From positions 18,873,759 through 18,937,758 of the forward strand of contig CAIIXF020000009.1 of assembly GCA_903813345.2 (NCBI GenBank): DNA of 64,000 bases. Reading direction: 5' to 3'. A program made the translations under genes and the position numbers. The DNA comes from Owenia fusiformis (taxonomy: Eukaryota; Annelida; Polychaeta; Sabellida; Oweniidae). Shown here in pieces: positions 11,801 through 57,906 of the stretch. The notes beneath the pieces are model-generated. The model ran no database searches. It saw only the letters and a program-made list of their open reading frames with translations, and was not told where the DNA came from. Every line of letters starts with the position of its first letter. Within the stretch, counting starts at the first letter, position 1.

Positions 11801-14800
11801 CTCTGAACTAAATTAACAGGTAAGATAAGATTATAAGCAAAAGTCTCTCAAAAGTTTCTTTAATAAAATGTACAAAAATGTACAAAAAACTTGAAAATGT
11901 GAACATTTATTGTTGAAAACCCACTTGAGATTTTAAATACAGTGTACATGTATTGGATATTAACCATTTCTGGCCACTTTTAGTAATTGATTTTTGATTC
12001 ATTTTCCCTATGAATGCATATATGGGGTACAATGAATAAGATGTGGCATTTCATGATTCAATATTATCTAGTATGTGCCATTCTTAATATTAGATTCGTA
12101 TTTGTGTATTTTGTTTTGAATTAGAATATATTATATTACTATTATATATTGTTTCATGCACATTATATCTTGATGAATAGCAAGATGTCTTTTGTTTTGA
12201 TGCATGCAATATGCTTAAAAGATTATCAATGAATAATATCTTAATGTTTTGTCAAAAGAATTAATTTCCATTTTTTGTATATTACCTGGGTCTAATTTTG
12301 GTGTAATTTACATCTGCAGGAGCTACACAAAAAGCGAGAAGGGAAACGCATAGAAAACCAGAGGAAAGCAGAAGAGGAATTAGTTTTTCTTCAGTCAAAT
12401 GGAAAACTAACCAAAAATCCATCCAACAAAAATAATATCAAAAGGAAAGTTTTGAAAAAGACACGTCCCAAAAGTCGGTCAAACGAACATTTAGAGACTG
12501 ATAGTGAAGATGATATTGAAAGATCAAGATCACCTGCAAGGCCCAAGTCACCAAAACGTCCTGGCACAGCAAGCAGTGTAGGGAGGAAGGTTGATGAAAT
12601 ATTTCAAGTAGGTAGATTTTAACATACATTTTGTGCTTTATTTCTTATATGACATTCTAAGATATATAAGGAATCATGCTTTTGGTAGATTAGAAGTCTA
12701 TCACAGTGGTCAGCTGTTAATGAATATAAAGCATATTATAAAGTCCACAGAAGAGGTAATAGAGAGATTTCGCACATAAGTGAAAGTACAACTTATACGT
12801 ATACGTATAGTTTAAAGGGTCATGTCGAACTATTATATTTACTAAAATCAATTTTAAATTGTACTTAATGGAACATAACTATTCCCGTTATAGAAAAGCT
12901 CCATCAACTAGAGACTATGAATGCACTGTCATCTGCACGTGTAGATTATGCACATTATAATTAAATGCTTGCTTCCGTGTCCTTGTAGTTGTAGTGTATT
13001 ATAAACACGATCCTTTAAAGGGAGTCGTGATTCTTTAAAGTGAGTCATCACATAAACAAGTTGATTATTTCAATGTTTTCATGATCAGTATAAGTTCAAG
13101 GAACTTACAAAACGGTATATTTACGTAGATGATAACGTATACAGTTGGATCTCCGTATAAAGATTTGCCTACATGTGTGTGGAACAATTGACCGCAAGCA
13201 TTTTTTAAAATTAATTGGCTGAGTGAGTACAGTATCCAATCAAATACTTTAACCATCAATTTGAAACACCAATCAAACCAGAAGGTTCTAGCAATTCCTG
13301 GAAACGACCCATTCAGTAGCTCAACATATGACATACAGGGTGTTTCATAACGAGCATCTCCAAAAAGTCAATTTGAGAAGAGATGGGTCTATAGCATATG
13401 TACTATATATGAGCCTATTTTATTCTAGACAAACACATTTGGATCAACTAAACATGCTACAATTCAAGAAAGTACAAATGGCATCCCTTTGACCTGTATT
13501 TATTATAGTCCGAGAAGATCTTTCCTGACGAAAAGCTCACATTATGAAACACCTTGTACGTTTACCTATAAGTATAAGTATACGTTATAAGTTGTACTTT
13601 CACTAGGTGCGAACTCTCTCTAATGACATTTTGGACTGGCTTATTAACCCTTTCACGAAGATAGGCTCCATATGGAGCCCTATTATGTAATACCTTTCAG
13701 GACGATAGGCTCCTTTTGGCACCATTATTTTTATCTATATACATCAATGAAATGACACAATCTCCAGTTCTATTCAGTATTTTTACACCAAATTTTGACA
13801 AGTTGTTCTAATGTGATAATCCTTACTTAAAATTGTATTTCAGTGATAAAATTCAGGGTATAGGTCCCGGGGCGTAGGTATTTTGCAGTTTTCCCCTAAA
13901 AACTGCTCTTACTTATCTGTCACCAGAGCCAACATTTTCCTCTTATATTCACGTCGGGAAAGGGTTAAAGTGAACTTAATAATGATATCACAATCAAAAA
14001 GTGCCAATCTTCTTATTTGATATTGAGTAATTTTTTCATATATTTTCATGATTATCTTTGATTGTAAAAGCTTTTTTGTATTGATGTGTTTCTCCTGGTG
14101 AGAAATAGCTGATTTCATGAACATTTCCTTACTGATTGTAAGTGAAGATTTGCCGATGTAATCTGTAATATTTATTTAAATCTCATATAGCAGTATGTAC
14201 CTTTTCAGGACAATAACATAACTCATCGGACACTTGATGTAGAAAATGATTTTGGTGTTGAAGATGCGCCTCCTCAGACCCCTAGTAATGCTCCAAGTAA
14301 AACAACAACCTTAGATGATCTTATGAGCACACTCAAACTCCTTGAAGAGGATGAAAAATTTCCAACACCCCGAATTGAAATTGAAGAAAAGAACGAAACT
14401 AGGAAAAGTTGGTGTATGTATTTTAGCTAAACCTTTGTCCTTTCATTCTGATACTCATCTCATATAATTTCTCACATACGGATGTTATTTGTGCAGTGAT
14501 TTGATTTCAAATGGAGGGATTGCCATTTTTCCAAAGGTGGTGTGTCTACAACTCTACATAATAAAAAACATCTCCATCATCATACATGAAGCCAAGCTTC
14601 TCCACCTCTTTCACCCAAGCACATAATTCATCTTTCCTCTGAATCTCATTTTCATCAGCATTGTGAACAAAATCCCCAGGGATAGTGAAATTTGCTCGAA
14701 AAGGGACTTGTGGTGGCACCAACTGCACCCCCCCCTCCCTTTGGGTATGCCCATGATCCATGATGATGTACCTCTTTGTTGTTCTCTTTATAGTTACTGA

Positions 14801-17800
14801 ATAAAATGAAATAGCTTTAAACAAAAGATGTCATGACTGGTAAGGGAACCAGGGATAATGTTGATTTGATTCGATTATGCAAAGTTCAATCATATAATAA
14901 CATTACTGTGTCATGGTGTAACGATTTTATTGACATGCTTGTGTTATATACCTATTATAAAGGAAGTCTTATTTATACACTTTAAACACATTTGAAAACT
15001 TAAAGTAAATTAACAATGCAAGAATATAGAGCAAAAGGAGCATTGCAAGGAAAAAAAACATAGTATTTAGATCTGTAACATATACATATTTTTGAATCTG
15101 TAACTTGCTAACTGCAACATATTGTATCATGAGTAGCCAATTTTACGACATAGTAAATAAGGACATAATGATCTGGTTGATGGGAAAGGCAAATTAAAAT
15201 TATTGACTTCATCTGTCTTTTATTATCCCATCGAACGAAGTTCGGAGGGATATAGGGAACGCCTCCGTCCGTCCGTCCGTCCGTCCGTACGTCCGTCCGT
15301 CCGTCCGTCCGTACGTACGTCCGTCCGTCCGTACGTATGTCCGTCCGTCCGTCCGTCCGGGCAATAACTCAAATACCGTTGGCCCGATTTTGTTCATATT
15401 TTGTACACATATACCCTATGGGGGTAGAAGTTCTGCTCGAAAGCCGATTTTCAAAATGGCCGCTCATTTCAAAATGGCGGCCATTTTAGTGCCGATTTTA
15501 CAGTAATTTAGGTGCAATATGTAAAACTGTAATAGCAATATGTTTTAAATGTAAAAAAATTATAAAGGACATTAATAATGCTACAAATGTAGATATTAAA
15601 GAAGCGCATGGCAGCCATCTTGAAAAATGGCGGCCTTTACTCGTCATTTTACGATTTTTGCTGTAACTCCAAAAATAGTGGAGCAATTTTGTTCATATTT
15701 GGTATGTGAATACTATAAGCATTGCACACTGTCTAAAGACACTTTTGGTAGAAGGCGGCCATTTTGAAAAATGGCCGCCATTTTAACGTATTTTACTATA
15801 ACTCGAAAAGTAGTGGAGCGATTTTGTTCATATTTGGTATGTGAATACTATAAGCATGGCACACTGTCCTATGACATTTTTGTGAGAAGGCGGCCATTTT
15901 GAAAAAAAATTTGAAAAATGGCCCCCATTTTAACGTATTTTACTATAACTCTAAAAGTAGTGGAGCGATTTTGTTCATATTTGGTATGTGAATACTATAA
16001 GCATGGCACACTGTCCTATGACATTTTTGTGAGAAGGCGGCCATTTTGAAAAAAGATTTGAAAAATGGCCACCATTTTAACGTATTTTACTAGAACTCGA
16101 AAAGTAGTGGAGCGATTTTGTTCATATTTGATATGTGAATACTGTAATCATGGCACATTGTCTAATAAAACTTTGGGGAGTAGTCGGCCATTTTGAAAAA
16201 TGGCCACCATTTTTATGTGTGTTATTTTACAAGTACGTGTGCGATTTTTCAAAAATTTTAGAGGTGGCTACTTAAAAGCATATTATTTCTTCTGATGACA
16301 CCTTGGCAAGTGAGCAACCATTTTGAAAATGGTGGCCTTTCTGGTGTGTTGTTTTATGATATTTGCTATTCGTTTGTAAAAATGCCAGCTATCTCTGTTC
16401 GATGGGATTCGCTACGCTTTGGCGTTGCCGTTGTTCTGGTTTTTATCCTAGCTGTTTACTTTTGTCCATACTGATTTTGAAATGTGAATAAGGACATATC
16501 GATCACATTGATCGAAAATATGTAAAAATGTTTTTGAAATGTGACCATTATGTTGTTTCCTTCCAGTTGCCACTGGTGCTACTTCAGATGAAGAAAGTGC
16601 AGGGTACCTATCCGCAGATAAACTAGAAAAACTTAATAAACAAAAAGTCCCAAATTCAAAAAGCGGTTTATTATCTGAAGGAAAATTGAAAAGTATTATG
16701 ACCTTCTTAGATGAGGTTGACACGACTGAACGTTTGGATAACATAGATCAGGTAGAGTTATTACTTTGTTGTGATGAATCTTATTTGAACTACATCATTT
16801 TTCTATCTAATTGACTATTTACAAATATTCATGTTTATTCATACATGCCTTTAATTTATAGTAATGTATTGTTAATGTGAATTATTTTTCTTGTAATAAA
16901 TTCATAGGTTGAGCTTTGGACTTGATAATTCAGAATGATCTCTGTATTGTTGTATGTATATTTAGTGAATTGACATTCAATTGAAATTGATTTCGTGAAA
17001 CGGATTAATGAAAAACTCAACAATGATTATATGTTTTAATTGAATAACTAATGTCTTCATGGTCATTGTCAATCTTGTCATGTTTATTTCATTGTGTTTC
17101 TTATTACAATAACTTGAATATGTTTTTTTATTCTTTGTTATTTTTTATTAATCCTTTTCAAGAAATTAACAAGTTTGATTTATTTGGAATGCATGAAAGA
17201 CCTGCCTTGTTTCCTGTGTAAGTGCATCTTCTAACTACCCAAGCTTCATAAGTAAACTTGACAATACTTACCAACTTTACTTATTGCTTTTGAACATGGT
17301 TTTGTATTTGTAGGAGATTAACAAGGTGAATGAGATGCTAGAGAGACCTGCCTTGTTGGTTCCCACCGGTGATGAGTTGGTTCAGATGGAACGTGCAGCT
17401 GCCCAAGCCTCAGAAGTAACCTCAACTGTTCTCAACCAACGAATGGAACTTGATGAGAAGAAACGGTCCATACAGATGCTGCAGAAAGCCCTCGTGAGTA
17501 GATGTTTTATTTGGTTCTCAATACATTACTGTAAATTGCTTTCATCTGTTACCTGTTTAAGGCTGCCATTCATTCATTTTTACAAGATCCCCAACTTAAA
17601 GATCTAATAGCAAAGGTTTTGCAAAAATGAATCAATATAGTTTAAAAGAAATGTACATATAATGAAGAAATAAATACATAATGAAAAAAATAGGATATGT
17701 GTTTGAAATATTGGAATAACTTAAGATTTAAAAGTGTCACTATCTCTTTCATTTTTGAACAAATATACGCTCACGTGACATGTGACGCGGGGCAGGCAAT

Positions 17801-20800
17801 TTTGATCTATCGTAGACCATATCAGTATCAAATTGCCGATATTTCAACCTCGTCTTGCGAGGCCATTTCGATTTGAAACATCTTGAATTTGGTGTCAAAA
17901 TAAAGCTGGTCACGCCCACTTTCATAGTTATCAATGAATCATTTACTACGACTACTATATTCATTTAGGAGGCGTGAAAAGTTAACCAATCAGAAAGACA
18001 GTTGTTCCATACATGGCAGTTCATTAACATATTCAGTGTTTACTACTGCTTTTCGCGTCATGACAAGACGAGTAGTAACCAATCAAGATGCCGTATTTTA
18101 TCACGCTCAGAGTTCAGAGTGACATGCACACGACATGTAGTCTGAGTTGATCGCGATGTTGAACCAGATAAATCAGCGATTCTAAATTAAGGTAGGATCT
18201 GCCATTTCTTCCTGTACAAGTCATAACTTATCTCTATCAAATCCTAAAGTTTTGGATGAAGATATGAAGCATATGTTTAAAAACGAAGCGATTAATTTGA
18301 CGATCTGATTTTGCAATTTGCAATGGCCAATTTACTGCAAGTCTGCGCAAAGTCTTGTATCTAAATGCGCGCTCGTTAAGCCACTCAAAAACAAGATCCA
18401 CATTTTCTAAATTTGATAACTTTGCAGAAAACCTGTTTTCATAATCTGTTTTCTGTGTCTAAATTCAATCTGGGAAGGATAAAGGATCGCTGGGATCCTC
18501 AGTCAACAGCAACGGGTCTTCATTCCAGAACTCACGTTTTTTGTTGATTCTCTGTCATAGTACTTGTCTAAAGTCCCCATATCTGCTCTCTTACTGGCAT
18601 ACTTGGACACATTTCCCCTCCTTAAATTGTCCTCAGTCAAATTACACCCTCTCGCCGATTTATATAGCCATTTTCCAGAACCCGGGAATCAGAATCGCTG
18701 ATGTTTGCCATATTGAACATGTTGAACTATATTTACTGTAATATCTGTAATACTCTACATTGCCTGCTACGCGTAATGGTCATGTGACAAGCGCAATACA
18801 GGAAAAATGGGGAATTTCGAAACAACAATTTTTTGGCACTTTTATTGCAAATTTCAGGTATTTTTAAGTGTTTGTGGTATAAAATATAATCCACAGACAT
18901 AAATGAACATCCAAACTACATATTTTATTAAGTTTTGGAGCCTTTTTTGCACTTAAATTAACATCTTTAAATAGGCAGCAATGTGCAGACAATTTCTCAA
19001 ATTAAATAGCATAAAATTGAACCAATTGACAGTACAGGGTGTCAAAAAACAACGGCACCCCCTCTACAGCAAAAAGTCCTGAATGTTCCATATTGTGTCA
19101 TACATCATTTGAAAGATAATTTGATTCTGGAGTTACTCCTCAAATTTCATTTAATAAAACTTTATATTAAAAAAGTTACATTGTTTTTAAGTTTGCTACT
19201 TTGGTACTTTATTTGCTGCTCTTTTACTGGTTAAAGGCCAAATCTTCAGAAAGTGGAATATGAAAGAATTAGCTCAGATTTCAACTGCACTGAACATATG
19301 GGTTCAGTTTTGAAAAACAGGGTATAGGAACTGATGGACGAAAAGCCTCTTGAAAAAAAATACAGTGGGGATGTATTTCTGAAGAATTTGAGGAAAGTGC
19401 TTAAAGGATTATGCAATGCTACACCTTTATCTGAATTTTCATTGAAATCATATCTGTCCAGATAAGCTGCTGTTTGAGCAGCAACTGGTGGTCATACCAA
19501 CTACTAAGAATCCGCTGTAAATCTGTAAAATTATATGATATAAAGCTGAAATTTCTCAGGTAACTCCAGAATTAAATTGTCTTTAAAATGAGATATGACA
19601 CACCATTTAGTATTAAGTACTTTTTGCTGTAGAGGGGGGTGCCGTTGTTTTTTGACACCCTGTAGATATGGAAAGATCCTAAATGAGCATATTCTCAATT
19701 GGCAGATTCAGCTTGTTGTTTTCTAACATTCTTACTTTCTACTGTGTTTTTGTGTAGCCAACAGGAGGTAAGAATGGAATGAGATCTCTAAAATCCTGCC
19801 ATTTTCCTGCCTGCAATAATCAGTTAAAACTTACATACTTATATAATTTTATACAACAGATGTATCGATGTAGCACTGATTTTAGCCTTGCCCAAGTCGG
19901 TATTTTTTACTTATCTGATCTTGAATTATTACCGCCTTGTACAATCCAATACATCTCCGCTGCTATTATGCTGAGATATTAAACGGTTTCGAGATTTCCA
20001 TAATACCTACGCTATCAGGGGTATCGCGAAACCTTATTGATTAACAGATATACGCGTGGACACGACGTGTGACTTCAGGCTGATTGACCAATCAAAACGT
20101 TATCAGGTTGAGCTGCACAGCAAAGCAATCTTCCCGTCTACGACTTGAAATTCAATGACATATTAGTCTCAGCTCTGATCGATCGTTTCTTTAGAGTTAC
20201 AATATATTATGTAATTAAATGTACATAGGGAATGTAAGAGTCATTAATATAAATTAAATCATGCAATAGATTTAAAACTGATCTCGCGATGAAAATGCAA
20301 GACCTAGTCCAATGTAGCGGGTCATGTAGTCGTCGATCAGTGATTGAATCTTAGCCTACATGTTCATTTGAATTCAGCGATCGTTTCAACGTTTATTGTT
20401 GAAATCTTCTAATCTCCGGTTACCGATCGATGTCTAGCATCCACTTAACTCTGATTGATATTTATCTGATAAAATATTTGTATTTTCATGATGAATTCAT
20501 GCAAGATTTGTTCGTGAAAAGCCCCGACGAAAAGTGTACTTGTTTTTGACCGTGCATAATAATGAGCTAGCGCTGCAGGGCCGTCGTTGATTGGTCAAAT
20601 TTTACCGACATAAACATTGAGTCGGTAAAGCACATGGCTTTCTCTTTTGTACAAGGCGGTCATAATAGAAATCAGATAGTAAAAGAGACCGACTTGGGCA
20701 AGGCTACACTGATTTCATACTTATAGAAACTATAGTGACCATCTATTCATCAACAATTTTTTATTATGAAAGTCTGTAAATTACACTATTGGTCCTAGCT

Positions 20801-23800
20801 CCTACTATTATTTGGTTGTTCAGGAGAAATCAGCTTTTTCACCATGTGAGACCAACTGCTTCTTTACCAGTACATGCCCAATATTTACATTAACCATACT
20901 TAGGATTTTATTTTTTAGAAATAAGAAATGAAATGCTGTATAATGTAATGTCATCTATAGTGCATAATAACTATTATAATATACTGTGTTGTTTGTTTAT
21001 TATTTCATCATAAACTAATAGTGAGTTTATTGTAAATACCACTATTTAGATAGGGATTTAAATATAGTAAAAAGTAATTCAACTGACAGCGAAATAATAT
21101 GATGTTTACTGAAACATTGTGACTCCATCGACCTGTAATTTCTAAGAATCCACTGTAATAATGTTAATTGAGATATTGTGACTTTAATATTTACTATTAC
21201 TAAGAACTACGGATTGCTTCATTAACCTTACCATTCTGAGTATTATTTGACAGAATGTTTACAAAGCACTGTAACTCTATTGACCTTTCATTTATTCACA
21301 CACAAACATAGGCCGTCCAACTGTCCCACATTTTGCGTATTTGTCATGCATTTGCTGAAGAAATTACAGAGTATGTCACGCAAATACGCAATTAACCTGA
21401 TAATTGCCAAGCAAAAACATTTCTGTAGAAGAACTTCAAAAAATGAACGCCGGTACATCAAAAAAAGGGATATAGTCGTCATGATGGCTGCGTGATCGTT
21501 ATTGTGATCGTTTTTGTGATCGACCCGCTTTTTTGTCATCGCCATTTAAAGAAAACTGCTCATCAGACTTTCTCCAAATTTGCACACATTATAGAAGATA
21601 TCAAGTTTTCGGCCTGATTATTAACTTTTAGGCAGCCATCTTGTTTTCTGGCAGCCATTTTGAAGGTTTTTCCATAAATCACATCAACGTCATTTTAGGA
21701 AAACCGCTCATCAGATTTTCTCCAAATTCTCACACATGATAGAGGATATCAAGTTCTAGGCCTGATTAATTTTAAGGCAGCCATCTTGTTTTCTGGCAGC
21801 CATTTTGAAAGTTTTTCAATAAATCACGTCATCACCATTTCAGGAAAACCGCTTATCGGATTTTCTCCAAATTCACACACATGATAGAGTATATCAAGTA
21901 TTTGGCCTGATTAATTTTGGGTGACAATCTTGTTTTCTGGTGGCCATTTTGAAGGCTTTTCGATAAATCTTGTTGTCACCATTTCAGGAAAACTGCTCAT
22001 TTGATTTTCTTCAAATTCACACACATGATAGAGGCTATTAAGTTCTAGACCTTATTAACTTTTTGGTGGCCATCTTTTTTTCTGACAGCCATTTTGAAGG
22101 TTTTTTGATAAATCTTGTCATTGCCATTTCAGGAAAACCGCTCATCAGATTTCTCCAAATTTGTTTGGACATCAAGTTATAGGCCTGCTTAACATCAGCA
22201 TATAAAATAAAAATTGAACCAAATCCATTCACTGGTATTTGAGTTATCAAAGATTATGTTTTTTTTTACGAAAAATGGCCGCTATTTTGTATCTGGGCAT
22301 CATCATATAAAGTTTGATCCAAATCCGTTCACTGGTATTTGAGTTATCAAAGATAACATTTTTTATGAAAAATGGCCACCATTTTGATATTTAGCAGCCA
22401 TTTTAAAATCCCATCTTCAGCATAGTTCCTTTGTCCCTTGGCATAAGGACATACAATTTGAACCAATTCCATCAACTAGTATTTGAGTTAACAAAGATTA
22501 CGTTTTTTATGAAAAATGGTGGGCATTTTTAAATTCAGCCGTCATCTTGAAAATTATTTCTTGAACAATTCTACTTTGTCCATAGGCATCATCACTTCAA
22601 TTTTGAACCAAATCCATTCACAGTGGTATTTGAGTTATCAAAGATTTCGTTTTTATGAAAAATGGTGGCCAATTTGATATTTAGTAGCCATTTTGAAAAT
22701 CTCTTCTTCAGCATAGCTCCTTTGTCCCTAGGCATCAGCATATAAAATTTTAAGCAATTCCATCAACAAGTATTTCAGTTATCAAAGATTAGGTGTTTTT
22801 ATGAGAAATGGTAACCATTTTGAAATTCAGCTGCCATCTTGAAAATTATTTCTTGAACAAATCTACTTTGTCCCTAAACATCATCATGTGAAATTTTAAC
22901 CAAATCTGCTCACTCATTTTGAGTTTTCAAAGATTACGTTTTTTACGAAAAAGCAGTCATTTTGAAAATGTCTTCTTCGGCATAGCATTTTTGTCCCTAG
23001 GCATCAGCATATAAAATTTGAACCAATTCCGTCAACTAGTATTTGAGTTATCAAAGATTATGTTTTTTTTATGAAAAATGGCCCCCATTTTGAAATTCAC
23101 CATCTTGAAAATTATTTCTTGAACAAATCAACTTTGTCCATAGGCAACATCATGTAAATTTTGAACCAAATCCGTTTACTGGTATTTGAGTTATCAAAGA
23201 TTATGTTTTTTACAAAAAGGGGCCGCCATTTTTATATTTAGCAGTCATTTTGAAAATTTCTTCTTCAGCATAGCTCCTTTGTCCATAGGCATCAGAATAT
23301 AAAATTTGATGCAAATCTGTCAACTGATATTTGAGATATCAATGATTACATTTTTTTAGAAAAATGGTGGCCATTTTGAATTGAGCTGCCATATTGAAAA
23401 TTCCCTCTCGAGCAGAGGTCCTACACCCATAAGGCATAAGCCTATGAAATTTTAATTAAATTTGTCAACCAGTATTTGAGGTATCGTCCGGACACACTAA
23501 TGGACGGACGGCTTTCCTATATCCCTCTCAAACTTTGTTCGGTGGGATAACAAAGACAGTTGCTTCGCTAAGGCTTTCTAACTCCTCTATCCACAGATGC
23601 TATGTGTGTTTGTGGTCTGTTTAAAGTACATTCATTTCCCTTAAGAATGCGCTATTAAATACAGAATCAACCTCTGAACTTGTTGTGGAGCATAATCTCC
23701 ATTTCAGTAGGATAAGGTCACCGTTTTTACTGAAAAGATTGCTTATAATCCTTAATAATGTAACCAAACCAAGTAATACGGATTGATAGTCCATCCAGGG

Positions 23801-26800
23801 TGTAGATTGCTATTTTGTCACCATGTAGCCTTGCCTACATATCAGTTGCAGTTTGATCATTATCCCATCGAATGAAGTTGTATGTCCATACGTCTGTCAG
23901 GGCGATAATTTTGTTGGCCCTATTTTGTTCATATTTGTACCTATTGGGCTAGAAGTTCTGCTGGAAAGCCAATTTTAAAAATGGCTGCTCGTTAAAAAAT
24001 GGCGGCCATTTTAGTGCCAATTTTACAGTAATTTAGGTACAATATATATAACTGTCATAGCAGTATGTTTTACATGTGAAGAAGTTATATAGGACATTAA
24101 AAGTTGAGTAAATAGTGCAGAGACGTATCCAACGATCAAAATATTCAACGATCAAAATATATCGAATTTTGGATATTTCATCAAGGCTTACATCTATTTT
24201 CATTAGCTACAAAGAAAACCCCTGAACATACCTAATTTCTGCTGATATTCACAATCACTGGCATCCTCTGGCGGCGTCTCACCTTCTTGTCATCACGATT
24301 CCAGGAAGACTACTCGACAGATTTACTTCAAATTTTCATACATGTTAGAAGTTCTAGAGCTGATTAACCTTTCGGCTGCCATCTGTATTCTGGCGGCCAT
24401 CTGGGAAGTTTTTATATATAAATCTTGTCATTGCAATTCCAGGAAAAACCACTTGACAGATTTACTTCAAATTTTCACACATGTTACATGGTAAGAAGTT
24501 CTAGAGCTGATTAACTTTTCGGCAGCCATCTTGCATTCTGGTGGCCATTTTAGGAGTTCTTAGCTGAATCTCATCATCGCGATTCCATAAAAACACTTTA
24601 CGGATTTATTTCAAATTTTTACACATGTTACATGGTAAGAAGTTCTAGAACTGATTAACTTTTCGGCAGCCATCTTGCATTCTGGTGGCCATTTTAGGAG
24701 TTCTTAGCTGAATCTCATCATCGCGATTCCATAAAAACACTTTACGGATTTATTTCAAATTTTTACACATGTTACATGGTAAGAAGTTCTAGAACTGATT
24801 AATTTTTCAGCGGCCATCTTGCTTTCTTGGTCAACAAGCCCACACTGCTATGTTTTAGGTACGATATTGTTACCCTGTGCCTTGTTCATGATTTTTTCTG
24901 TAACTTGAAAACTAGAGAAGCGATTTTGCTCATATTTGATATGTGAACACTTATATGCATTGCACACTGTTTTATGACACTTTGGCTAGAAGGTGGCCAT
25001 TTTTATGTGTGTTATTTTACATTTTGTACAATAACTCAAAAAGTAATTGAGCGATTTTGTTCATATTTGATATGTGAATACTCAAGCATTGCACACTGTC
25101 TTATTACACTTTGGCTAGTAGGTGGCCATTTTGAAAAATGGCTGCCATTTTCACATTATGACCTTATCTGCGTTAATGAACTTGTTGACATTACCACGGA
25201 ATGTAACTGATCAATTTAGTAAAAATGGTGACCTTACCCTGCGGAAATGGAGATGATGTTACACAGCTATTTCTGAGCGCGATACAACAGCCCCCAGTCT
25301 TTAGGGAATTGATTTTACTTTCTACAGATAACAATATTATACCTGGTGATAGAGTGGTTCTAAAGCCTTAGCGAAGTAACTTTCTTTGTTTACAATTGCC
25401 AAAACATAAAAAATTAGAAAAATTGTCATAACTTTTCAGTTATATTTATCTTTTATTGACTCAAAAACCATGCCATGTAAATGTCATATCAGTCACTACA
25501 GTGTACAAAAACTACAAACTACAACTACATATAACAAAACTACTTTACATCAGTTTAGTTTCACATGTCAGGGTATCACAAAAATGGCGACCATTTTGAA
25601 AATAAGCGAGCTTTTGAACCAGGAGTCATAAGGGAGTTTTCTGTATTATTAGAGAGATTTCGCACATAAGTGAAAGTACAACTTATACATATACGTATAG
25701 TTTAAAGGGTCATGTTGAACTATTATATTTACTAAAATCAATTTTAAATTGTACTTAATTGAACATAACTATTCCCGTTATAGAAAAGCTCCATCAACTA
25801 GAGACTATGAATGCACTGTCATCTGCACGTGTAGATTATGCACATTATAATTAAATGCTTGCTTCCGTGTCCTTGTAGTTGTAGTGTATTATAAACACGA
25901 TCCTTTAAAGGGAGTCATGATTCTTTAAAGTGAGTCATTACATAAACAAGTTGATTATTTCAACGTTTTCATGATCAGTATAAGTTCAATGAACTTACAA
26001 AACGGTATTTTTATGTAGATGATAACGTATACAGTTGGATCTCCGTATAAAGATTTGCCTACTTGTGTGTGGAACAATTGACCGCAAGCATTTTTTTAAT
26101 TAATTGGCTGAGTGGGAACAGTATCCAATCAAATACTTTAACCATCAATTTGAAACACCAATCAAACCAGTAGGTTCTAGCAATTCCTGGAAACGACCCA
26201 TTCAGTAGCTCAACATATGACATACAGGGTGTTTCATAACGAGCATCTCCAAAAAGTCAATTTGAGAAGAGATGGGTCTATAACATATGTACTATATATG
26301 AGCCTATTTTATTCTAGACAAACACATTTGGATCAACTAAACATGCTACAATTCAAGAAAGTACACATGGCATCCCTTTGACCTGTATTTATTACAGTCC
26401 GAGAAGATCTTTCCTGACGAAAAGCTCACATTATGAAACACCTTGTATGTTTACCTATAAGTATAAGTATACGTTATAAGTTGTACTTTCACTAGGTGCG
26501 AAATCTCTCTAATGTTGAACAAATATAACTTAAAACGGGAATCCTTGAAACACAGGTTTTAAAGCAAATGGTCCAAAAGTGAATTTCGCGAGACAAAAAT
26601 GGTGGCCATTTTGAAAATAGGCGAGCTTTTGAACCAGGAGTCATAGGGGTTTTTTCTGTATTGATGTTGAACAAAAATAACTAAAACGGGAATCCTGTTG
26701 ACAGAGGTTTAAAACTGGCCAATTGTTGACAGATCGAAGTTATCTCATATTTCAATCAAAAACGCTCTGGTATAGACGTCGCCGCATAGTAAGGACTAGA

Positions 26801-29800
26801 GATCGCTAAAATGAACCAAGAATCTAACCAAACAATATTTTAGAAAACCCAGAAGGTCCCCTCAAATTAATGAATGGTTTTCCCGGATTATCTTCATTAT
26901 TTCTAATGAAGACTGCTGGATATTGATCTTAAGTTATGACTTATGATTTTAATGATAGATCATCTTTTTTATGTAAAAGTCGTGTAAAGACGTGAGAATA
27001 GGGGGACCATTTTTTATTCAATTTTGGTGACTACTCTATTATCGCCTGCTTGAGTTCCTTCGATAGTCAATCTTTTTCTGATTTTTTTGGCATAACTTGT
27101 CATTCCTTGATATTTGTTGAACTTTGTGAAGCTTTGAGAATGTTTTTTTAGCAAACGGGCGCTAAAATTGCACGATCTCTTGGACCCGAATTCATTTTAC
27201 ATGCTTGCAAGATAGGCAAAACTCGCGAGTTTACTCAATTATAGCTAGCTCGCTATTGAGTTGAAATAGATTGCAAGTTTCTAGAGGACAACTCGAGGCA
27301 ATGTATAGGCAGTTCTGACGAGCTGTACTCGAGTTGTGGACTCGGGAGTTACACCTCTAGTGTACATATGTGCGATTTTGTTGAAATTTTACATGTGCCT
27401 ACTTCATATTACACTTTTTTGTGAGAATTTGACTAGTGAGCAACCAGTTTTTATTTTGCTATAACTGAAAAAGTAGAAGGATTTTGTAAAAATGGCAGTA
27501 ATGCCTGTTCTATGGGATTTGCTACGCTTTGGCGTTGTTGTTGTCTAGTTTAATTTCATCATGATTTATAAATTGAATGGTTCAATGTTTCATTTTTTCT
27601 GGGTCTTTCTTGTTGCCTCTGCCACTACTCACCCATCTTTTTCCGCTGTTGAAAATGATATTTAAATCATGTAAAGTAAGGACTTACACCTGATGATTGA
27701 AAAAATTTAAATCTACTTTTAAAAAAGACACTTTTTGTCGATTATTGCGCTAAAGTAATTTCCCGTATTAGCTTTATTAAACCTAAATTAGAGGAAATAT
27801 GGACAGTATCTTCTGTAGTTGCAATATTAAGAATGTTTGGAATAATTATCCCAACAAACGAAGTTCGGTAGGGATATAGTGAAGCCCTCTGTCCGTCCGT
27901 CAGTCAGTCCGGAATATAACTCAAATATTAGTTGACCGATTTTCTTCATATTTTGTGGAAAGATGTATATTGATGAATGGTTTCACTCAAAAGAAATTTT
28001 TTCAAGATGGCCGCCACTTTAAAAATGACGGGACTTTTTCGCAAAAATCATAAATTTTTCATTCTAAACCAAAGTAATCAATATTATTGTTTGAAATTTT
28101 GGTAGTATATTCACAACATCTATCTATTTCACATATATTCCATGTTTTTCATCCTGACCCCCAGGGGCAGTGTATGGGGGGTCAGGAAAACAGAAATTTT
28201 CGCTAATTTTTAGATCTTTCTGAAGTATAGCTTTATTATACTCAAATGAAAGGCAATTAAGAGTAGATTGCAAATATTGTATCTTTTTTTCTGATTCTAG
28301 CCTCGTAAAATTCAAAATGGCCGCCTAATGTACGATTTGGCAATAATTTTTCGATCCCTTCAAAGTATGGCTATATTATACTCAAATTGAAGGAATTTTG
28401 GAGTAGATCACAATTGTGGTATTATTTTTCAGATTTGTACCTCAGAAAATTCAAAATGGCTGCTTTGCAGGAATTCGCAATTCTAAAATCTAAATTTTTC
28501 AATTTTAACCAAAGTAATGAGTATAATTGATTGGAATTCGGTAATTGATATTTTGTTCGTTGGGATTTGCTACTCGGCAGAGTTGCCGTTATCTAGTTAA
28601 AGCATTATAAACTAATAAGCATTTATAAGCAAAATAAAAACAAGTTCAGATGTGAGCATTAACAGTTTATTTCGTACAATATCAAAAGATTTAGGTATTT
28701 TGTCAATGAAATCACATAATTTATTCTAGTTCCATAAATACACAAAGTAGAATAATATTGTTTTTACCGTGACAAATGAAATGTACATTTTTCTCTGAAA
28801 CTATAATTGATGCTGATTAGTTGGTATATAGATACATTGAAGAGGTGCTCGTGAATTGAGTGTGATCAACTCAGCAAAGACACTTGTTGCAAGTTAGTAT
28901 TCATTATCAAAGGAGCAAAGAAAGGATGTCTCATACAATAATTTTAGGCATACTTGTTTTTAAAACAGTGTGCTTTGTGTCTGTGATATCTCAGTGCTGC
29001 GATTTACAGACTGCTGCACCAGGTATGAATCTTAATTAGTTTCAGCTCTTTTTAAATTGATGTAAATCATGTATCAGATCTTGCTAATGGTTCAAGTCAC
29101 TCATTCTCTGAGAAGCAGTAGTAGAATTCTCTGTAAGTGAACAGTTAAGGTGTCTTTTTTGTTGTTCACTTTTCTTTTAATCTCATGATTCAGTAATTGT
29201 TTTGTTTTCATTGTAAGTCAGTTAAAAAGCCGTTTAGATGATATATTCCAGTTCACCATGACTGTCGTAGAGTAGATGGGATTAGTGTCACTAATATTGA
29301 AACAATCGATGGTCACAGATTTACAGCTCTCTGTAGAGATAGGCGCTTGGTAATTGCTCGAAGATTTGACGGATCTGTAAGCTTTGATCGAACTTGGGAA
29401 GAATACAAAAATGGGTTCGGTGATCCAAAGGGAGAGTACTTCATAGGGTTTGACAATCTCATTGCTCTTTTACATCAGAAACGCTATGGATTACGAGTTG
29501 AGCTAACAACATGGGACTGCGAGACCAAGTATGCTCACTATAGTGGATTTTGCATTGATTCTGAGGCAAAAAAATACAAACTCAGACTGAGCAACTATTA
29601 TGGCACCGCAGGTGATGGGTTGATGGAGCGACATAGTGGTATGCAGTTTAGCACAAAAGACAGAGACAATGATAATCATAGTGGCCAGTGTTCTGAAATG
29701 AGGAATGGGGCATATTGGTATGATGACTGCACTGATTCAAACCTCTTTGGACATTACTCTACTGGTCCGGAGTGTGCAGAAGGAGCATGGCGTTGTATTA

Positions 29801-32800
29801 ACTGGAAGCAATGGCCAGACACACTTCTTAGTGATGCCAAAGCTGAGGTCGCAAAGGAATTGTACTCATTCAAATCTGTAGAAATGAGACTCTATTAGCC
29901 TGTACTATGTACAAATGGCAAAAATGATGAAATAAATTTAAAGAAACAGTATCAAACAAATGTTTTTAGGATACAGAAGACAGTTTAAAATTTATTAACC
30001 ATTACTATCTTGACAGAATAAAAATACATATGATACGACATCAGATACTGTACATCACGGCATTTTACTGCATTTTTACATGCATACTTACTTTTAAAAC
30101 CGCGATATCTCGACAGCAAAATCATATTTTTCTACAATTTTTCGTCATCAGTTGAACACATATGTCCATGAAATGTTTTGCCTATCGGAATTCCAAATAA
30201 TTGATTTGGGACTTTTTGAATGAGAATCACGCAAGCCATATTATGTGACTTTCTATGCTAAAACCGGATGTGGACTGTAACATTTTGAAGAAAAATGATT
30301 TTAATTTTAAATGCAAGAATGAAGATAACTTTTTCATTTCTTAACGGATCTTTCTCAAATTTTCACAATATTTAAATTCACCATTTTGGAAAAGACAAAA
30401 CGGATTCTGTGTGATGACGTCATAATATAACAATGCTAACTTAACGCTTATATTTATGCCAAGAAAGTGTGGACAGGCAGATATATTCATATAGGCATAT
30501 ATTCTATATTTTTATCAAAAAACTACACCATTTCAATTAAAATTCAGCCTGTAAGAAGTATAGATTGAAAGAAATATGAAGTGAAGCCATGTGAAAAATT
30601 CACAAAATTACGTTTCATTTTTTGAGTTCAAATATTTCTAATTAAGAGATAAACATTCAAAACATTCCAATGTTTCACCATGTTCTTTTAAATATACCTC
30701 TTACTACATACAATTAATTTCATTTAATTTGAACCAGTATATATTGAGATAGACATCATTTTATCACTGCAACCCCAAGTGAAGCCTTTACGAAATAAGA
30801 CGTTATGCCGTTAGCGTATTATATGTTCTCCTTTATTATTCATTGCTTTAAATAAATAAAACTAAATATTTGAGTTAAAATAAATTACAAATAATACATT
30901 TAACAATCCTTAATATCTTCCCGTCTGTGTATATCAGTTGAATATGACAAGGGGCTCTGTGAAAGAGTCTAGAAAGACGTTGCAACAACGAGAGCGCAGG
31001 GCCGAAAAGCGCGACAAAGAAGAAAAGGGGTAGGGTTTGAAATGTCTACTTTCTGGTGATTCTCATTCTGTATATCGTGACACAACCTTTTTGAATATAG
31101 AATTGTATTGAAGCGCACATTAATCTGAACAAAACTTGAAGTTTTTAAGAAGATTCCAACAATATTAAAACTTTTGCAATTACTTGGAGGAGCATTGCGC
31201 ATATTTATCGCATAAATCTTTGCATTTTGTCAGTAAAATGAACAATTACAATGTTACGCCATGATGTACAGTATCTGATGTCGTATGACATACAGATAAA
31301 TAATATTTTTTACTCTCTTTTCAATATACTAGATACGAGTAGATATAATCTTGATTTACTTCATTAAACATTCAAAATTTACTTAAAGCGATATCATATT
31401 TGACGTCTACATCTAAAATTGGATCTAGAGATGTGGTTTAAAAAAGTATTTACCAAGTTTGAAAATTTAATTTTCTTTGAAAATGTTCAAAATAGTCAAC
31501 TACTGGATAATATTAAAGCAATCAGAAAATAAAAAGTGGCAATTTTTAAAGTCCCCATCTAAAGTTTAAACCACTTTGGCTAATATTGTAGTCTTACCAA
31601 ATGTTATCAAAGTGTGATATGTGAAACTTTTTTTTTAAATTTAAAAAAGTGGTTTTTGATAGACTTTTTGTTCCAAAATTTGTGAATTTATTTAAAACTA
31701 ACTTTTAGAGGTCACGCATATCTTTTAATTAGCCACAATTCATACCAATGCATAGCATTCATCTCGCATGTTTTTTTGCCGAAAAAATTAAAGCGAGAAA
31801 TGAACTTATCAGTGCATGAAAATGGTTCCGAGAAAAATGCATTTCAAAATTTTAGTTCTCATAGAAACCAATGGTACAATGATATCTAAAACATAATATA
31901 TTTAAGAAATATAGACCAAAGAGTTTCTAGTTTCGAATAACACCCCGCTGGTATCGGCACAAACGTTTTCTATATCCCGAACGACCGAAGGGAGTGAGGG
32001 GTTCGAAAGCTTTTGTGCCGAGACCAGCAGGGTGTTATTCGAAACTAGTAACCCTGCTCTGAGGTCTATATTACGATTCGAACATGAAAACTCACCAAAT
32101 TGTTTCGAATATTCATCATGGTCCGCCATTACTACGACCCACTGTTATGACGTCACACATTACACGTATTAACTGGGTTATTGATCTCGAATATAACCCA
32201 GCTGAAGCATTGACTTTGTTTACAGTTTATAGAAGGCGTGAATACAGTCATGTTCGAATCTTCCTTTTAACCTGGTTAGACAATCAACATTGGTTTATTA
32301 TTGAAGTTTAGCATATTTAGAAAAGATTGACATCTAAAAAAAATTGAAAATTTTTTTCAAAAAGTTTTTGGTACCTTAGTTACATCACTAATGTTTCAAA
32401 ATATTTTTGATATGCTAAAACATTGAAGTGGCCCATTAAATATGGCATTTTATTATTGGAATAGTGTCTCCTTTGTTCAATCTTTGCATTGGTGTTAAAA
32501 AGAATCTTTTTTGAAATGCATTTAGAAATATTTGATGTTTAAAAAATTTCAACTTTTTTTGAAAAATGGCGGGAAATTTGAATATTTGAGAAATGAAATG
32601 CTCACAACTTTTTTTCAAAAAATTTTGTTTTTCAAAAATCTCTAAAATAACTTTTTAAGTCATGACAAATAGTAAATAAATGATAAAAAAATATTTTCAA
32701 ACTTTAGACGGGGACTTTAAGTAATTGTTTACAAGGTAAGATATAGTATAAAAGTTTATGTGTACATGACAAGTGTGATATTTGTAGACCAGTATAGGAC

Positions 32801-35800
32801 AATAACCATTTGTTCTTTCAATGTTATAGAGAAATTAATGAAATGGTGCAACGTGAAAATTATATTCTAGAACATTTTAAGATTGAATTAAAGATGTATT
32901 AAAACCAACAGAATCTCTTATAATCCCACTGAACAAAGTTCAAGGGGATGTAGAAAAGCCAGCCGTCCATTCATCTGTCCGTTTGTCTTGGCAATTCAAA
33001 TAGCCACCATTTTTCGTGAAAATGTAATCTTTGATCACTCAAATAGGAGTTGACGGATTTGGTTCAAATTTTATATGCTGATGCATAGGGACAAAGGAGC
33101 TTTATTCAAGAAGAGATTTTCAAGATGGCCACTAAATTTCGAAATGGCCACCATTTTAAGTCAATAACGTTATTTTTGATTATTCAAATACCAGTTGACA
33201 GACTTTAATCTAATTTTATATGCTGATACCTAGGGACAAGAAGACATTTTCAAGATGGCTGCTGATTTTTAAATGGCTGCCATTTTTTATAAAAGATTGT
33301 AATCTTTGATAACTCAAATACCAGTAAACGGATGCTATATATAACGATATGCGGATGCTAAGGGACACAGGAGCTCTGCTCAACAAGGAATTTCTAAGAT
33401 GGCAGTTGAATTTTAAAATGGCCACCATTTTTTGTAAAAGAACGTAATCTTTGATAACTCAAATACCAGTCGACAGATTTTGTTCAAATTTTATAGGCTA
33501 TGCCTAGGGACAAAGGAGCTTTGCTCAAGAAGACGTTTTCTTGATGGCTGCTGAATTTCAAAATGGCCACAATTTTTCGTAAAAACGTAATTTTTGATAA
33601 CTTAAATACCAGTAGACAGACTTTGTTCAAATTTTATATGCTGATGCCTAGGGACACAGAAGCTCTGCTCGATAAGGAATTTTCAAGATAGCAGCTGATT
33701 TTCAAAATGGCCACCATTTTTTCGTAAAAGAACGTAATCTTTGATAACTCAAATACCAGTTGACAGATTTGGTTGAAATATTAAATGCTGGTGCCTAGAG
33801 AAGAGAGCTCTGCTCAAGGAGACATTTTCAAGAAGGCCACTTAATTTCAAAATGGCCGCCATTTTTTGTAGAAAACCATAATCTTTGATGATCAAATACC
33901 AGTAGACTGATTTTATACACTGATGCCTAGAGATAAAGGAGCTCTCTTTAAGATAGCAGCTGAAATAGCCACCATTTTTCATAAAAAAAATATAATCTTC
34001 AATAACTCAAATACCAATGGACAGATTTGGTTCTTTCATATGCTTATACCTAGGGACATTCGGAAGCTCTGTTCAAGAAGGGATTTTCAAGACTGCTGCT
34101 ATTTATCAAAACTTTTTTTGTTCGGTGGGATTTTCTACTCCGTGGAGTTGCTGTTTTCTAGTTAGCTTGTACTTAGCACAAATAACAAAATCTTTTGTTA
34201 TTTTGACTTCAAAGCTTGTGATATTTCCCCTTTCCTTTAACAAAAGCTAAGCCAAAGTAGAAATATACATTAGTTTCACATATGTATGCATCATAATAAA
34301 AAAAAAAGATTTTTTTTATCAATTGACACTTAACAAAAAATGATTTCCAGTGAAAAGAGCACTACACAATTATTCATTACAAATGCAAGAAACAGATTTA
34401 AATACATAGTAGCCCGGACAGAATTGTTCAATGGTCACTTTTTCTTTATAACTTTTTTAATTTTCAGTATTATCAAAATCTGATTAGATACTTGAAAACT
34501 AGAGTAAAATTCTGACATGCTTTAAAAACATTTAAGGAACATCCCTTAATTTATTGATATTACGAGGGGAGATCCAAAAGTCTTGGACGCCCTGCTCTAA
34601 TTTTGTTAGTTTTTGATAAAATTACTTTAAACTTCCCAATAATAAAGACCTACAACTTAACTACTTTGTGTATTAATTTCATGGAGAAATGATATAATTT
34701 ATGTAGTTTTCTAGATAGTTTTTAATATAGGGACCCTGCCACCCGGAACGGTATTCACATATGGCAACTTTCAGCCTTTAATGTTGCCGCCATTTGACTT
34801 GTTTCGCAAGTCTTGACCACTATCTTTCTTTGAATTTTGAATGTTAAACCATCTTAGTTTACTTCCTTTGTTACTAGGCAACCAATTTATTGCGTTTTAA
34901 TTATAATGTCACATATAACGATGGTCATATATGTCAAATTCAAGGAAATTGACATTAGCAAGCAACCCTCACTCTGGTATCATTTGTGCTCCAAGATGGC
35001 TGCTGAAGTGCAGAACACGAAAGAATTCAAAGTGGAACAAAGAATTCTAAAAGATATTCTCACTATTATTGACCTTGAGCAGTCACCATATGCACGATGT
35101 AGTCTAGATATGGCTCCGTGTGATTTTCTCCCTTTTCTCCTCGTTGAAAATGAGAGTTGAAAGAAAATGTTTTTATTCATTGGATGAGGTTTAGAGTGGC
35201 ACCCCAGCAGCATTTGTATCACACAAGCAATGGCAGTTTCATAAATGTCTTCCATCCATTGGTAAAGCGGTATGAAAATTGTGTTAAAATTCGCTTAAAA
35301 TATTAGAAAAGTGGGTCTTAATATGAAAAGATGATGATGGCAGATGACAATCAGATTGAAAATCGGAAATTCTCTCATATCACGACTGGAACAAAGCTGT
35401 GCACCTGCACCTATAGTATTTGCCATATTAATAGTTGTGACGTGATTTGCTATATTTAAATACCGTTCCGGGTGGCAGGGGCCCGGTATTTAAAAATATT
35501 TAGAAAAGTAGCTAAAATGTATTATTTTCTGGTGAAACTATTACACAAAGTTGTTAAGATGTTGATCTTTATTATCTGAAAGTTTCATGTAATTATTTAA
35601 GAAAATAGCAAAGGTAGAGCGAGGCGTCCAAGACTTTTGGATCACCCCTCGTATAGGGTGAATTTGAATGTTCATTTGAAAATTAATATTTACAAAATGT
35701 CATAGGCCTAGGAAGTCATATAGACTGCTGCTTTGGTATGAGGTAATGACTGCATTTAAAACCTTGTTTTAAATTGACTCGTATGTATACCGCTACATGT

Positions 35801-38800
35801 ACTTAAAAAGGTTTGTACATTGTATGTACAGTATATTGGTTGGGGTTGCAGGATTTTTGGCCATTCCACTGTTACCCGTAGTGGATAGGCAACCCTAGTT
35901 TGTTTAACCCGTGCAACTATAGGGTCATACTGCCACAGTTTTTGGCTCACACAGTGAGCCTATGGGTCCGTCCGTTGGTCTGTCCGTCTGTCCGTCCGTT
36001 GGTCCGTCTGTCCCTCCGTTGGTCCGTCCGTCCGTCAACGTTGGCCGCACAAATTAAAACTGCTATTCAGATTGAGTCCTATCCACATTCATTTTATGCA
36101 TATCCATAATGCCTATTTGACCTATCATCGCCATTTCCCAAGTTCGCCCGGTTTCCGAGAAATTGCGAATTTTGACGTCAAAAAGTCAAATTTTCTGTAA
36201 ATACTAGACACTTTGTTGAAGTAGAACTTTCAAATACCTTTTAGTAGTTGGTGTATATGCAACTTATGTCCTCTGAAGATTTCAAAGCTCTTGGAATTAC
36301 GGTTTTTGGTGTTTACTCTATAAAATTTGAAAAAAAGTAGGACTTCGTTATTTTCAGGAAACTTTCTCATGTATAAAGTCAATGGCAGGTTTTGTGATTG
36401 ACAAGATTCTTAAAGTTTGCCTTATACTTGATCATTTCCTGCAATAAATTACATCATTAATAGATTTAAGCATTCCCTACATATTTCTCAATATATGTCA
36501 GCATCAAATTTTTACAGTTTTTGAGATATTTGATGTCAAAAAACAGTAAAAATAAGTTATTTTTCAACTTGCTTCAATTTGACCAAATTTGTTTTTGAAA
36601 ATCATCTACAAGTTACCAGGAGTTCAAATCTGACATTAGTTTTAGGATTTGACCTTTACTTGACCTTCAGTGACCTTCGAAAGGTCAAAAAACTTGACTT
36701 TTCAAATTGATTTTTGGATGTAAATTTTGGTCAGCTTAATCACAAAAGACCTTACTGAGCTCTGAATAAGTAAAATTTTCAAGGTCAAAGGTCATCAAAT
36801 AGGTCACACAACTATGCTATCTAAGTTTGTCAAAGTTCGAGACTACAAATCCAAATCAATATTTTTGTTTCAAAGTCAGGATATAAATTCCTCCGAAGGT
36901 TCCAAACTGTGTGAGCATAGGACCGTGGGTCCTTCATTAATGTATTTCCCATTCACACTCCTCTTAACCCATCCTCGGCATGCATGTGAATTGTTCTTCA
37001 GCTTTTCAATGGCCTCTGAGATGGCTGTTTGGAGCTCTTGAAAAGACTGAGGACCTACTCTCATCACACCCCGCACATTTGGGCGCCACCTTTTCACATC
37101 CTCATGAACACAACCCCGAACATTTCAATAGATTTGAGTTCATATACCCTTGGAAGGAGTTGACCTCTTATATTTGATGATTAGTCAGTTGGTGCATTAC
37201 ATCAGGATTGTAAAAGTGGCAGCATGACCTTATAGGCCTATGACAATCTTTAAATATTGACTCTTAACTGAACATTCAGATTCACGAAATATGCTGCCAT
37301 TTTGAACAAATATGAGGCAAAATGGTGAATTATGTATTTGCGTCACTCATACTATGAATGCCTATAATATCAACAAATTAAGAGATGTTCCTTAAATATT
37401 TATTTATGTGAGAATTTCACTCTAGTTTTCAAATATGTAATCAGATTTTGATAATACTGAAAACTAAAAAAGTTATTAAAGAACAAGTGACCATTGAACA
37501 ATTCTGTCTGGGCTACTATGTAGCATAAATTTAAAACAAGTAAAAAGATTAAGTGCATCTTTCAGTTTAGTTGGGGGAATTTACCCCTGTATTCCATACC
37601 TACTAAGGTTCTAGGTACATAACGAGCGGGAATAAATACTGTATCTAGGGATATATCACTGAGGAGCTGGGCGGGATGGATACAGCCTGTATCCATCCCG
37701 CCCCGCTCCCAAAAAAGCGAACTTGATTTACGTTCGTTTTTCCTATGCATACAAAAATGTCAGACGAAAGTGGAGATTTTGCACTCAGATTTGGAGACAT
37801 TGACGTCGATTCATTTATCGAGGAATCACAAAACGAAAATACTTACAAAAAAACAAAGCTCGATGTAGCAACTCTTAAAGGATTCTTGGAAAGCAAAGGG
37901 GAAACGAGAAATATCGAGGACATCGAACCGGATAAACTAAACAATTTTCTTGGATCATTTTTTGTCAACATTCGACAGAAAAATGGGAGTGAATATCAAC
38001 CCGGGTCTCTTCAGAACTATTTTGGAAGTTTTGTAAGACATTTAAGACATAAGAATTACGCAGTAGATATTATAAAGGATCAAACATTTAGTAAAGCTCG
38101 TGCTGCATTGAGCAGCAAACAGAAACATTTGAAGGGGAAAGGATTAGGAGGGCGCCCAAATGCCTGTAGGAGTCTGAGTGATACAGAGATAGACAAACTC
38201 TACAGTTCAGGTTTGTGTAAGATTATTTCAGAATTTCCCAAGGTCTGTTGCAAGAGCTACATGAACCAATTATTTATACTCTCTGTTTTATCGATTAGCC
38301 TATCTTCTTTTGGGTCAAATTAGAGACTATAATTTGTTGTTTCATTTTCTTACTAGTCTACATTGTTGTTAATGCCGCTTTTACTGTCATTTTCAGGTGT
38401 TATGGGATTATCCGACCCGTCCGCTTTAGCATTTACGGTTTGGTGGAATAACATCAATCATTTTGGTGCAAGAACAGGAAAGGAAAGCAGAGACATGTGC
38501 TTTGGTGATTTTGAGATCGTAGAACAACCGAATGCTAAAACCTACATAGAGTTCTCAGAGCGTCATACAAAAACCCGATCGGGTTCCAATATCAACAACA
38601 TCAAGGATAGAGTTCGTATGTATAGTACCTCAGGAGATCCAGATGATGCCAGGGACCCAGTGTCCGTATTTCAGAAATATGTTAGTAAGCGCCCACCAAG
38701 CACTAAATCACCTGATTATCCCTTTTACCTGGGACTGACTCAAAATAAAGATTGGAGGGATGAAGATGCTTTCTGGTTTACAACGAATCCAATGGGGCAT

Positions 38801-57699: not shown

Positions 57700-57906
57700 T
57701 AACTGGGTCTCCTATTTAAAAAGCCAGAGTATTGTACAGGACAGAGAACTTTATGGAACTTTTGGAACGTTAACATGTATATTTAGATCTAAACTTCGAA
57801 ATCATTTTAATAAACTAAATTTCTAAATTCACATAATATAGTTAGTCAATCTTCATTTTTTATCCTCTCACAGCCAAGCAACAGTTACCCAATAATATGC
57901 GTAATA

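Follow-up and report, generated by a model that had tools for sequence, protein, structure and literature searches.

Copies of the repeat

We analysed 64,000 nucleotides of the annelid Owenia fusiformis (assembly GCA_903813345.2, contig CAIIXF020000009.1, forward-strand positions 18,873,759 to 18,937,758), referred to below as the window, from which all copies, counts and flanking sequences reported here are taken. It contains a group of related repeats with subterminal inverted repeats (subTIRs), a microsatellite, tandem core repeats and a 3′ palindrome, which are most probably old, non-autonomous Helentron-type rolling-circle elements of the HINE/DINE-1-like kind. A preliminary description of the same DNA listed at least four copies, at 15226-16439, 23863-27548, 27849-28596 and 32924-34161, and all four are found there on the plus strand (A1, A2, C and B1, respectively, in the list below). 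To these we add three members that it had missed: a minus-strand 5′ end at 23548 (copy B2), a 3′ end at 47191-47232 (D) and a decayed 5′ part at 43727-44078. The copies and their parts are as follows.

15225-16439, plus strand: copy A1, complete, with ATCCC start, 5′ hairpin, (TCCG)n tract, 147-bp cores, 3′ subTIR, hairpin and CTGG end
15225-15251, plus strand: A1 5′ subTIR with the adjoining inverted repeat (5′ hairpin)
15264-15359, plus strand: A1 microsatellite (TCCG)n, equivalent to (GTCC)n, 24 copies
15645-16213, plus strand: A1 core tandem repeats, about 147 bp × 4
16397-16439, plus strand: A1 3′ subTIR, palindrome and CTGG terminus, then TT
22190-23548, minus strand: copy B2, intact 5′ end at 23548, B-type cores, 3′-truncated, left edge approximate
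23549-23767, minus strand: repeat flanking B2, paralog of 25182-25390 (70%), whose homology breaks off exactly at the B2 5′ end
23862-27548, plus strand: copy A2, ending in CTAG, with an eroded 5′ end that lacks the 5′ hairpin, nested insertions and an array of a second type (24339-24827)
25156-27360, no strand assigned: block nested in A2, edges approximate (placed by eye)
27848-28596, plus strand: copy C, complete and ending in CTAG, with a short microsatellite and diverged cores (about 140 bp)
32923-34161, plus strand: copy B1, complete and ending in CTAG, with a decayed microsatellite and 145-bp cores
43727-44078, plus strand: A-type copy, decayed 5′ part only, interrupted at 44089 by another microsatellite-bearing repeat
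47191-47232, plus strand: copy D, solo 3′ end, CTAG^TTTT

Allowing up to three mismatches, the 3′-end motif has five matches in the window compared to 0.04 expected, and none of 100 shuffled sequences reached five. The 5′ 12-mer, at up to two mismatches, has 35 matches compared to 14.5 expected, 13 of them inside a (CCAT)n tract. Profile searches gave the five 5′ members E-values of 2.7e-21 to 4.1e-9 (4.6e-20 for the minus-strand end at 23548) and the five 3′ members 6.2e-20 to 2.1e-15 (the last of them ending at 47232), values that measure only mutual similarity since the scored ends also built the profiles. Independent support for the 3′ ends comes from the pattern search. The decayed part at 43727-44078 has core pieces 84.5% and 87.5% identical to A1 and a weak 5′ profile match (E 0.038). 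No 3′ end of B2 was found in 19000-22400, where GGGAT is absent from its strand. A (CCAT)n/(TCCCATCC)n tract (46887-47126) directly precedes the solo end D, ahead of which no core was seen; this tract may be the slipped remnant of a 5′ subTIR and microsatellite from a core-less copy.

We compared the 3′ ends by the published subfamily rule of at least 80% identity over the last 60 bp, the end of D being taken one base late in this comparison. Only A1 with A2 reaches this level, agreeing at 49 of 59 aligned positions with 2 gap positions. Among the remaining nine of the ten pairs, agreement is 69.5-79.7% of aligned positions with 0-12 gap positions, the highest being C with D (47 of 59). The copies therefore make up several related subfamilies, not a single family of four. 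There are at least two core-repeat subtypes, A (15225, 23862, 43727) and B (32923, 23548), in addition to C and the solo end D.

Structure of the ends

The 5′ ends read ATCCCA, two variable bases and mostly GAAC, followed by three bases, GTTC or GTTT, a few variable bases and GGGAT. Relative to the TCCCAYYGAAC proposed previously, we move the start one base outward, to ATCCC, for reasons given with the insertion site. The 3′ ends run GTTC, two variable bases, TGGGAT, two bases, an 18-nt palindrome, 10-11 bases and then the terminus, CTAG in four of five and CTGG in one. Every one of the five is followed by TT, in line with the CTRR end before T described earlier.

The 3′ repeat was said to mirror the 5′ end, and this is confirmed: in the four complete copies the 12-bp subTIRs pair at 12, 10, 11 and 11 of 12 positions, a match equalled by 1, 7, 1 and 3, respectively, of the 63,988 plus-strand 12-mers. 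Their length lies within the 11-15 bp that characterises subTIRs of HINE/DINE-1-like elements. The copy's own 3′ partner is the best of the four in three cases; the 5′ repeat of A2 fits the 3′ end of A1 (11 pairs) better than its own (10 pairs).

The 5′ subTIR can also pair with an adjoining inverted repeat to form a 5′ hairpin (in A1, TATCCCATCGAACGAAGTTCGGAGGGATA), a feature absent from the preliminary description. The inverted repeat is present in four of the five 5′ ends and deleted in A2 (23862). Over the four copies retaining it, the 10 pairs of the stem are formed in 39 of 40 cells, and DNA folding gives z-scores of −3.6, −2.1, −2.8 and −2.8, with 0, 13, 3 and 5 of 200 shuffles as good. 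In copy C the outer stem is retained and the inner pairing is shifted.

For the 3′ end, a hairpin had been proposed, and paired changes among its stems had been read as a sign that the stem itself is selected. The hairpin stands as far as complementarity is concerned, which in register amounts to 27 of 30 cells (90%) over five ends compared to 23-57% when slid. It holds less well in DNA folds, where the proposed stem is the best structure in only three of the five ends (A1, A2 and B1) and that of B1 is no better than shuffles (52 of 200 as good). The 3′ end of C favours another hairpin, CGGCA/TGCCG, and that of D has no fold; the stem extension to ACTCC/GGAGT would leave a two-base loop. The six pairs, scored over five ends, comprise two that are invariant, two with a one-sided change, one with a two-sided change and one with an unpaired cell only. 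The sole two-sided column pair is G-C in two copies, T-A in two and broken in one. With one such column pair, and with 120 of 500 shuffles reaching the covariation score (148 of 500 the paired fraction), the argument for selection of the stem is not borne out by these five ends. Covariation in the 5′ hairpin is likewise matched, by 225 of 500 shuffles. Since shuffles reach both scores, the 5′ and 3′ stems rest on complementarity rather than covariation. Compensatory change in the DINE-1 3′ hairpin is a proposal reportedly due to Yang and Barbash. The available part of PMC2374699 suggests such change across 12 Drosophila species.

Microsatellite, cores and nested insertions

The (GTCC)n microsatellite has 24 units in A1 and is short or decayed in the other copies, consistent with the near-5′ (TCCG)n tract reported before as nearly lost in two of them. 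The tandem core repeats are also borne out, the strongest lags being 147 (A1), 144 (A2), 140 (C), 145 (B1) and 145 (B2), so that all five copies fall within 140-147 bp. The lag of A2 stems from a second type of array (24339-24827), and the core of C is weak, with two units 74% identical. A-type and B-type cores are about 72-75% identical over 124-149 bp, and the A, B and C cores share a common orientation relative to the element ends.

Arrays of the second type occur at 21535-22161, beside B2, and at 24339-24827, in A2; they are related, have a period of 144-145 bp and lie in opposite orientation relative to the adjoining ends. The opposed array beside B2 perhaps arose by fusion or inversion where that copy is truncated. 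Separately, the motif A[AG]ATGGC/GCCAT[CT]TT is enriched in the copies, with 58 of its 92 window occurrences in the 8,909 bp of A1, A2, B1, B2 and C, a length that takes in the nested block and the second arrays. We take this motif to resemble a YY1-type site.

Copy A2 is long because it holds about 2.2 kb of other repeats, among them an 866-bp element with terminal inverted repeats (25648-26513). The ends of this element are imperfect inverted repeats of about 55 bp, TAGAGAGATTTCGC..., and a second copy (12757-13625) is 97.6% identical. The uninterrupted counterpart of the target and its surroundings lies at 60781-60985. No Pfam domain was found in the one open reading frame (ORF) of the element that was scanned (13068-13367, minus strand).

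Relation to known elements

The comparisons that follow are with the available portions of the papers cited. Cg_HINE of the oyster Crassostrea gigas (Vojvoda Zeljko 2020, PMC7492417) is alike by its published description. It has a 5′ subTIR of 11-12 bp with a complementary inverted repeat 1-12 bp away, a GTCY/GTCC microsatellite, a 3′ subTIR, a palindrome, T-rich or TT sites and satellite-like cores of 138-181 bp (147 bp for CL6 in its Table 1), a range that takes in the 140-147 bp lags of our copies. Core orientation is constant, some elements carry two arrays, and members are related in their flanks and not in their cores. As to differences, the main text of that paper makes no mention of CTRR, and in our window the array at 21535-22161 is inverted beside the B2 cores. 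Drosophila DINE-1/INE-1 (PMC2374699) shares the 5′ inverted repeat, GTCY microsatellite, central repeats, 3′ hairpin and TT insertion. Its D. melanogaster subTIR is 13 bp long, begins with A and contains a run of C (ATACCCGTTACTC); these letters differ from ours. DINE-1 is described there as lacking CTRR, the sole feature of our elements outside that description.

HINE-Mo and the Helentrons (Thomas 2014, PMC4067079) also have subTIRs, a 3′ palindrome, at least two Ts at each end and an unmodified target, and unlike the elements studied here they have a known autonomous partner. Lepidopteran Hel-2 (Coates 2015, PMC4344730) combines a CTAG end and a 3′ stem-loop with 5′ TC, flanking A/T, subterminal repeats and a 5′ inverted repeat, and its 5′ repeat is followed by a tetranucleotide microsatellite. 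Hel-2 differs in being short (consensus lengths 250 and 339 bp), and its description, in the part available, does not mention a core array. In Phytophthora infestans, proto-Helentron-Pi (PMC4067079) has a CTAG 3′ end and leaves its target unduplicated; it differs in being autonomous with a known Rep, in starting with 5′ TT and in an A/T insertion established by an empty site.

The anatomy of our elements thus resembles types described in oysters, flies and moths, and the family is real but ordinary in kind. The preliminary assignment to HINE/DINE-like, Helentron-associated elements finds support in the testable structural features. Its further suggestion, that the mix of features may mark an intermediate or undescribed lineage, is weakened: the mix is not new, since the combination is already in print for Hel-2 (PMC4344730) and a CTAG-ended proto-Helentron has been described (PMC4067079).

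Insertion site and alternative origins

Entry between A and T had been proposed and, together with the CTRR end, regarded as a canonical Helitron feature. The CTRR end is present in all five cases and A precedes TCCC in five of five; the A^T reading itself is weakened by the flanks and by one half empty site. When the A is counted as part of the element, TT precedes four of the five starts and follows all five ends, in keeping with the rule that HINEs are flanked by two or more Ts on either side (PMC4067079), and in all four complete copies, read as ATCCC...CTRR, no duplication extends beyond TT. The first A has an invariant T as its pairing partner, both in the 5′ inverted repeat (four of four copies) and in the 3′ subTIR (five of five). 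Alignment of flanks for empty sites yielded one half-site, at the B2 5′ end, where the filled site CTTTGTT|ATCCC (23549-23767) compares with CTTTGTT|TACAATT in the 70% identical paralog at 25182-25390. The right half of this site could not be recovered in 19000-22400. Given the pairing with a conserved T, the TT flanks and the T at that position in the half-site, we place the A inside the element and regard insertion at T^T as more likely than at A^T.

Some of the evidence weighs against a Helentron-type origin. The A before TCCC in every start is what canonical A^T insertion would give, and all five 3′ ends carry CTRR, a canonical Helitron mark that DINE-1 is stated not to have (PMC2374699). 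Copy B1 has TA, not TT, before ATCCC. Because the half-site paralogs share just 70% identity and B2 lacks its right-hand junction, the half-site base may be a later change, or the paralog may have its own end there. In DNA folds B1 has a weak 3′ stem, D has none and in C another hairpin prevails, and no autonomous partner was found in the scanned part of the window.

An alternative is that the copies are non-autonomous canonical Helitrons of the Hel-2 kind, with 5′-TC, 3′-CTRR and A/T insertion in addition to subTIRs, 5′ inverted repeat and microsatellite, moved by an endonuclease-free Helitron Rep/helicase. The constant A before TCCC, the CTRR ends and the T that follows all five of them would fit such elements. 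So would the 18-nt palindrome 10-11 nt from the 3′ end, since canonical Helitrons are described as having 3′ CTRR with a palindrome of 16-20 nt about 11 bp upstream, and the same feature set is printed for Hel-2 (PMC4344730). We nevertheless consider this origin unlikely. Canonical Helitrons are described as lacking inverted repeats at their two ends, where our copies have the 12-bp subTIRs; the A behaves as an element base in its pairing with the conserved T; the paralogous half-site has T, not A, at the junction; and TT flanks on both sides and satellite-like cores argue in the same direction. A cut-and-paste miniature inverted-repeat transposable element (MITE) with imperfect subterminal repeats and a TT target duplication, the former classification of Pearl and DINE-1 (PMC7492417, PMC4067079), is hardly credible: TT on both sides of three of the four complete copies could be read as a 2-bp duplication and, with the A placed outside, copy C alone has a 3-base match, but B1 has no duplication, the 3′ inverted repeat is set back 30-31 bp from the end, with a hairpin and CTRR coming after it, and the structure matches that of HINEs, whose empty sites show no target modification (PMC4067079).

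Searches for a partner and for relatives

An autonomous Rep/helicase copy with the same ends had been suggested as something to look for. By Pfam, no Rep, helicase or endonuclease was found among the 37 ORFs scanned of 98 in the window; these were stop-to-stop frames of at least 75 aa, a definition under which a partner broken by stop codons would escape. The 3′-end pattern had no match in IMG/VR and a core pattern none in a search for relatives. The 5′ pattern hit 11 IMG/VR contigs, all with the same coding-like stretch of one phage group and unrelated to the repeats. The 3′ pattern also matched once in a Nitrososphaera bin, which on a rough estimate was taken as chance. No Rfam family reached its gathering score in the window, and ARAGORN found no tRNA there. 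In a full-text literature search with six short end strings, none of the matches listed looked related by title and start of abstract; the available parts of PMC5139131 and PMC11136912 give no end sequences for comparison.

Other features of the window

A second microsatellite-bearing repeat family is found at 35934-36090 and 44089-44173 (89% identical over 85 bp). It consists of a GGCTCACACAGTGAGCC palindrome (in the first copy), (GTCC)n and then CGTCAACGTTGGCCGCACAAATT, and resembles the 5′ block of a further HINE-like family. ORFs within 37727-39545 match a QRICH1-like domain (E 2.3e-6, 28.1 bits, below the cut-off of 30.8) and DUF3504 (E 6.8e-21); they perhaps belong to a tyrosine-recombinase-derived or Crypton-like gene. 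Two ORFs with fibrinogen C-terminal domains (29242-29898 and 56011-56784) lie about 27 kb apart; with the DUF3504 ORF they point to animal DNA. Dense long inverted repeats occupy 56911-60068: among the 25 longest listed, arms reach 507 bp and most long ones are 86-97% complementary. At 62246-62941 there is a degenerate CAATA/CAGTG minisatellite.

Possible mechanism and implications

By analogy with the Helentron family, these elements would most likely be mobilised in trans by the Rep/helicase of an autonomous Helentron elsewhere in the genome, which would recognise one strand by its structured ends. The 5′ subTIR and its adjoining inverted repeat would form a hairpin at the start end, and the Rep/helicase would nick the 5′ end. 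The strand would then be displaced as far as the 3′ subTIR and the hairpin before CTAG, which may act as the stop signal, and the displaced single strand would be joined between the Ts of a T-rich target, which would not be duplicated. The GTCC microsatellite and the satellite-like core would be carried passively, varying by slippage and unequal exchange.

The 5′ subTIR could also be imagined as a two-way switch, pairing either with the 5′ inverted repeat, as a hairpin, or with the 3′ subTIR, as a panhandle, with both pairings constrained and together timing the start and stop of rolling-circle synthesis. We think this improbable. In the four complete copies, base 7 pairs with its 3′ partner in all four (T-A, T-A, A-T, C-G) and with the 5′ inverted repeat in one, whereas base 8 pairs with its 5′ partner in all four (C-G, C-G, T-A, C-G) and with the 3′ repeat in three. 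Permutations do as well in 2 of 24 cases for base 7 with the 3′ repeat, in 6 of 24 for base 8 with the 5′ inverted repeat and in 24 of 24 for the other three combinations, a weak result that makes the pattern suggestive at best. Were the two-way pairing to hold genome-wide, it would provide a rule, open to testing, that governs the reading of Helentron ends.

For the family itself, the inference that would otherwise have made it a Helitron-Helentron intermediate is corrected: the A is probably the element's own base, and CTAG together with a Helentron-like anatomy was already in print. The window is also an example of HINE copies that cluster and nest, and of satellite-like arrays (about 145 bp) carried along in such elements.

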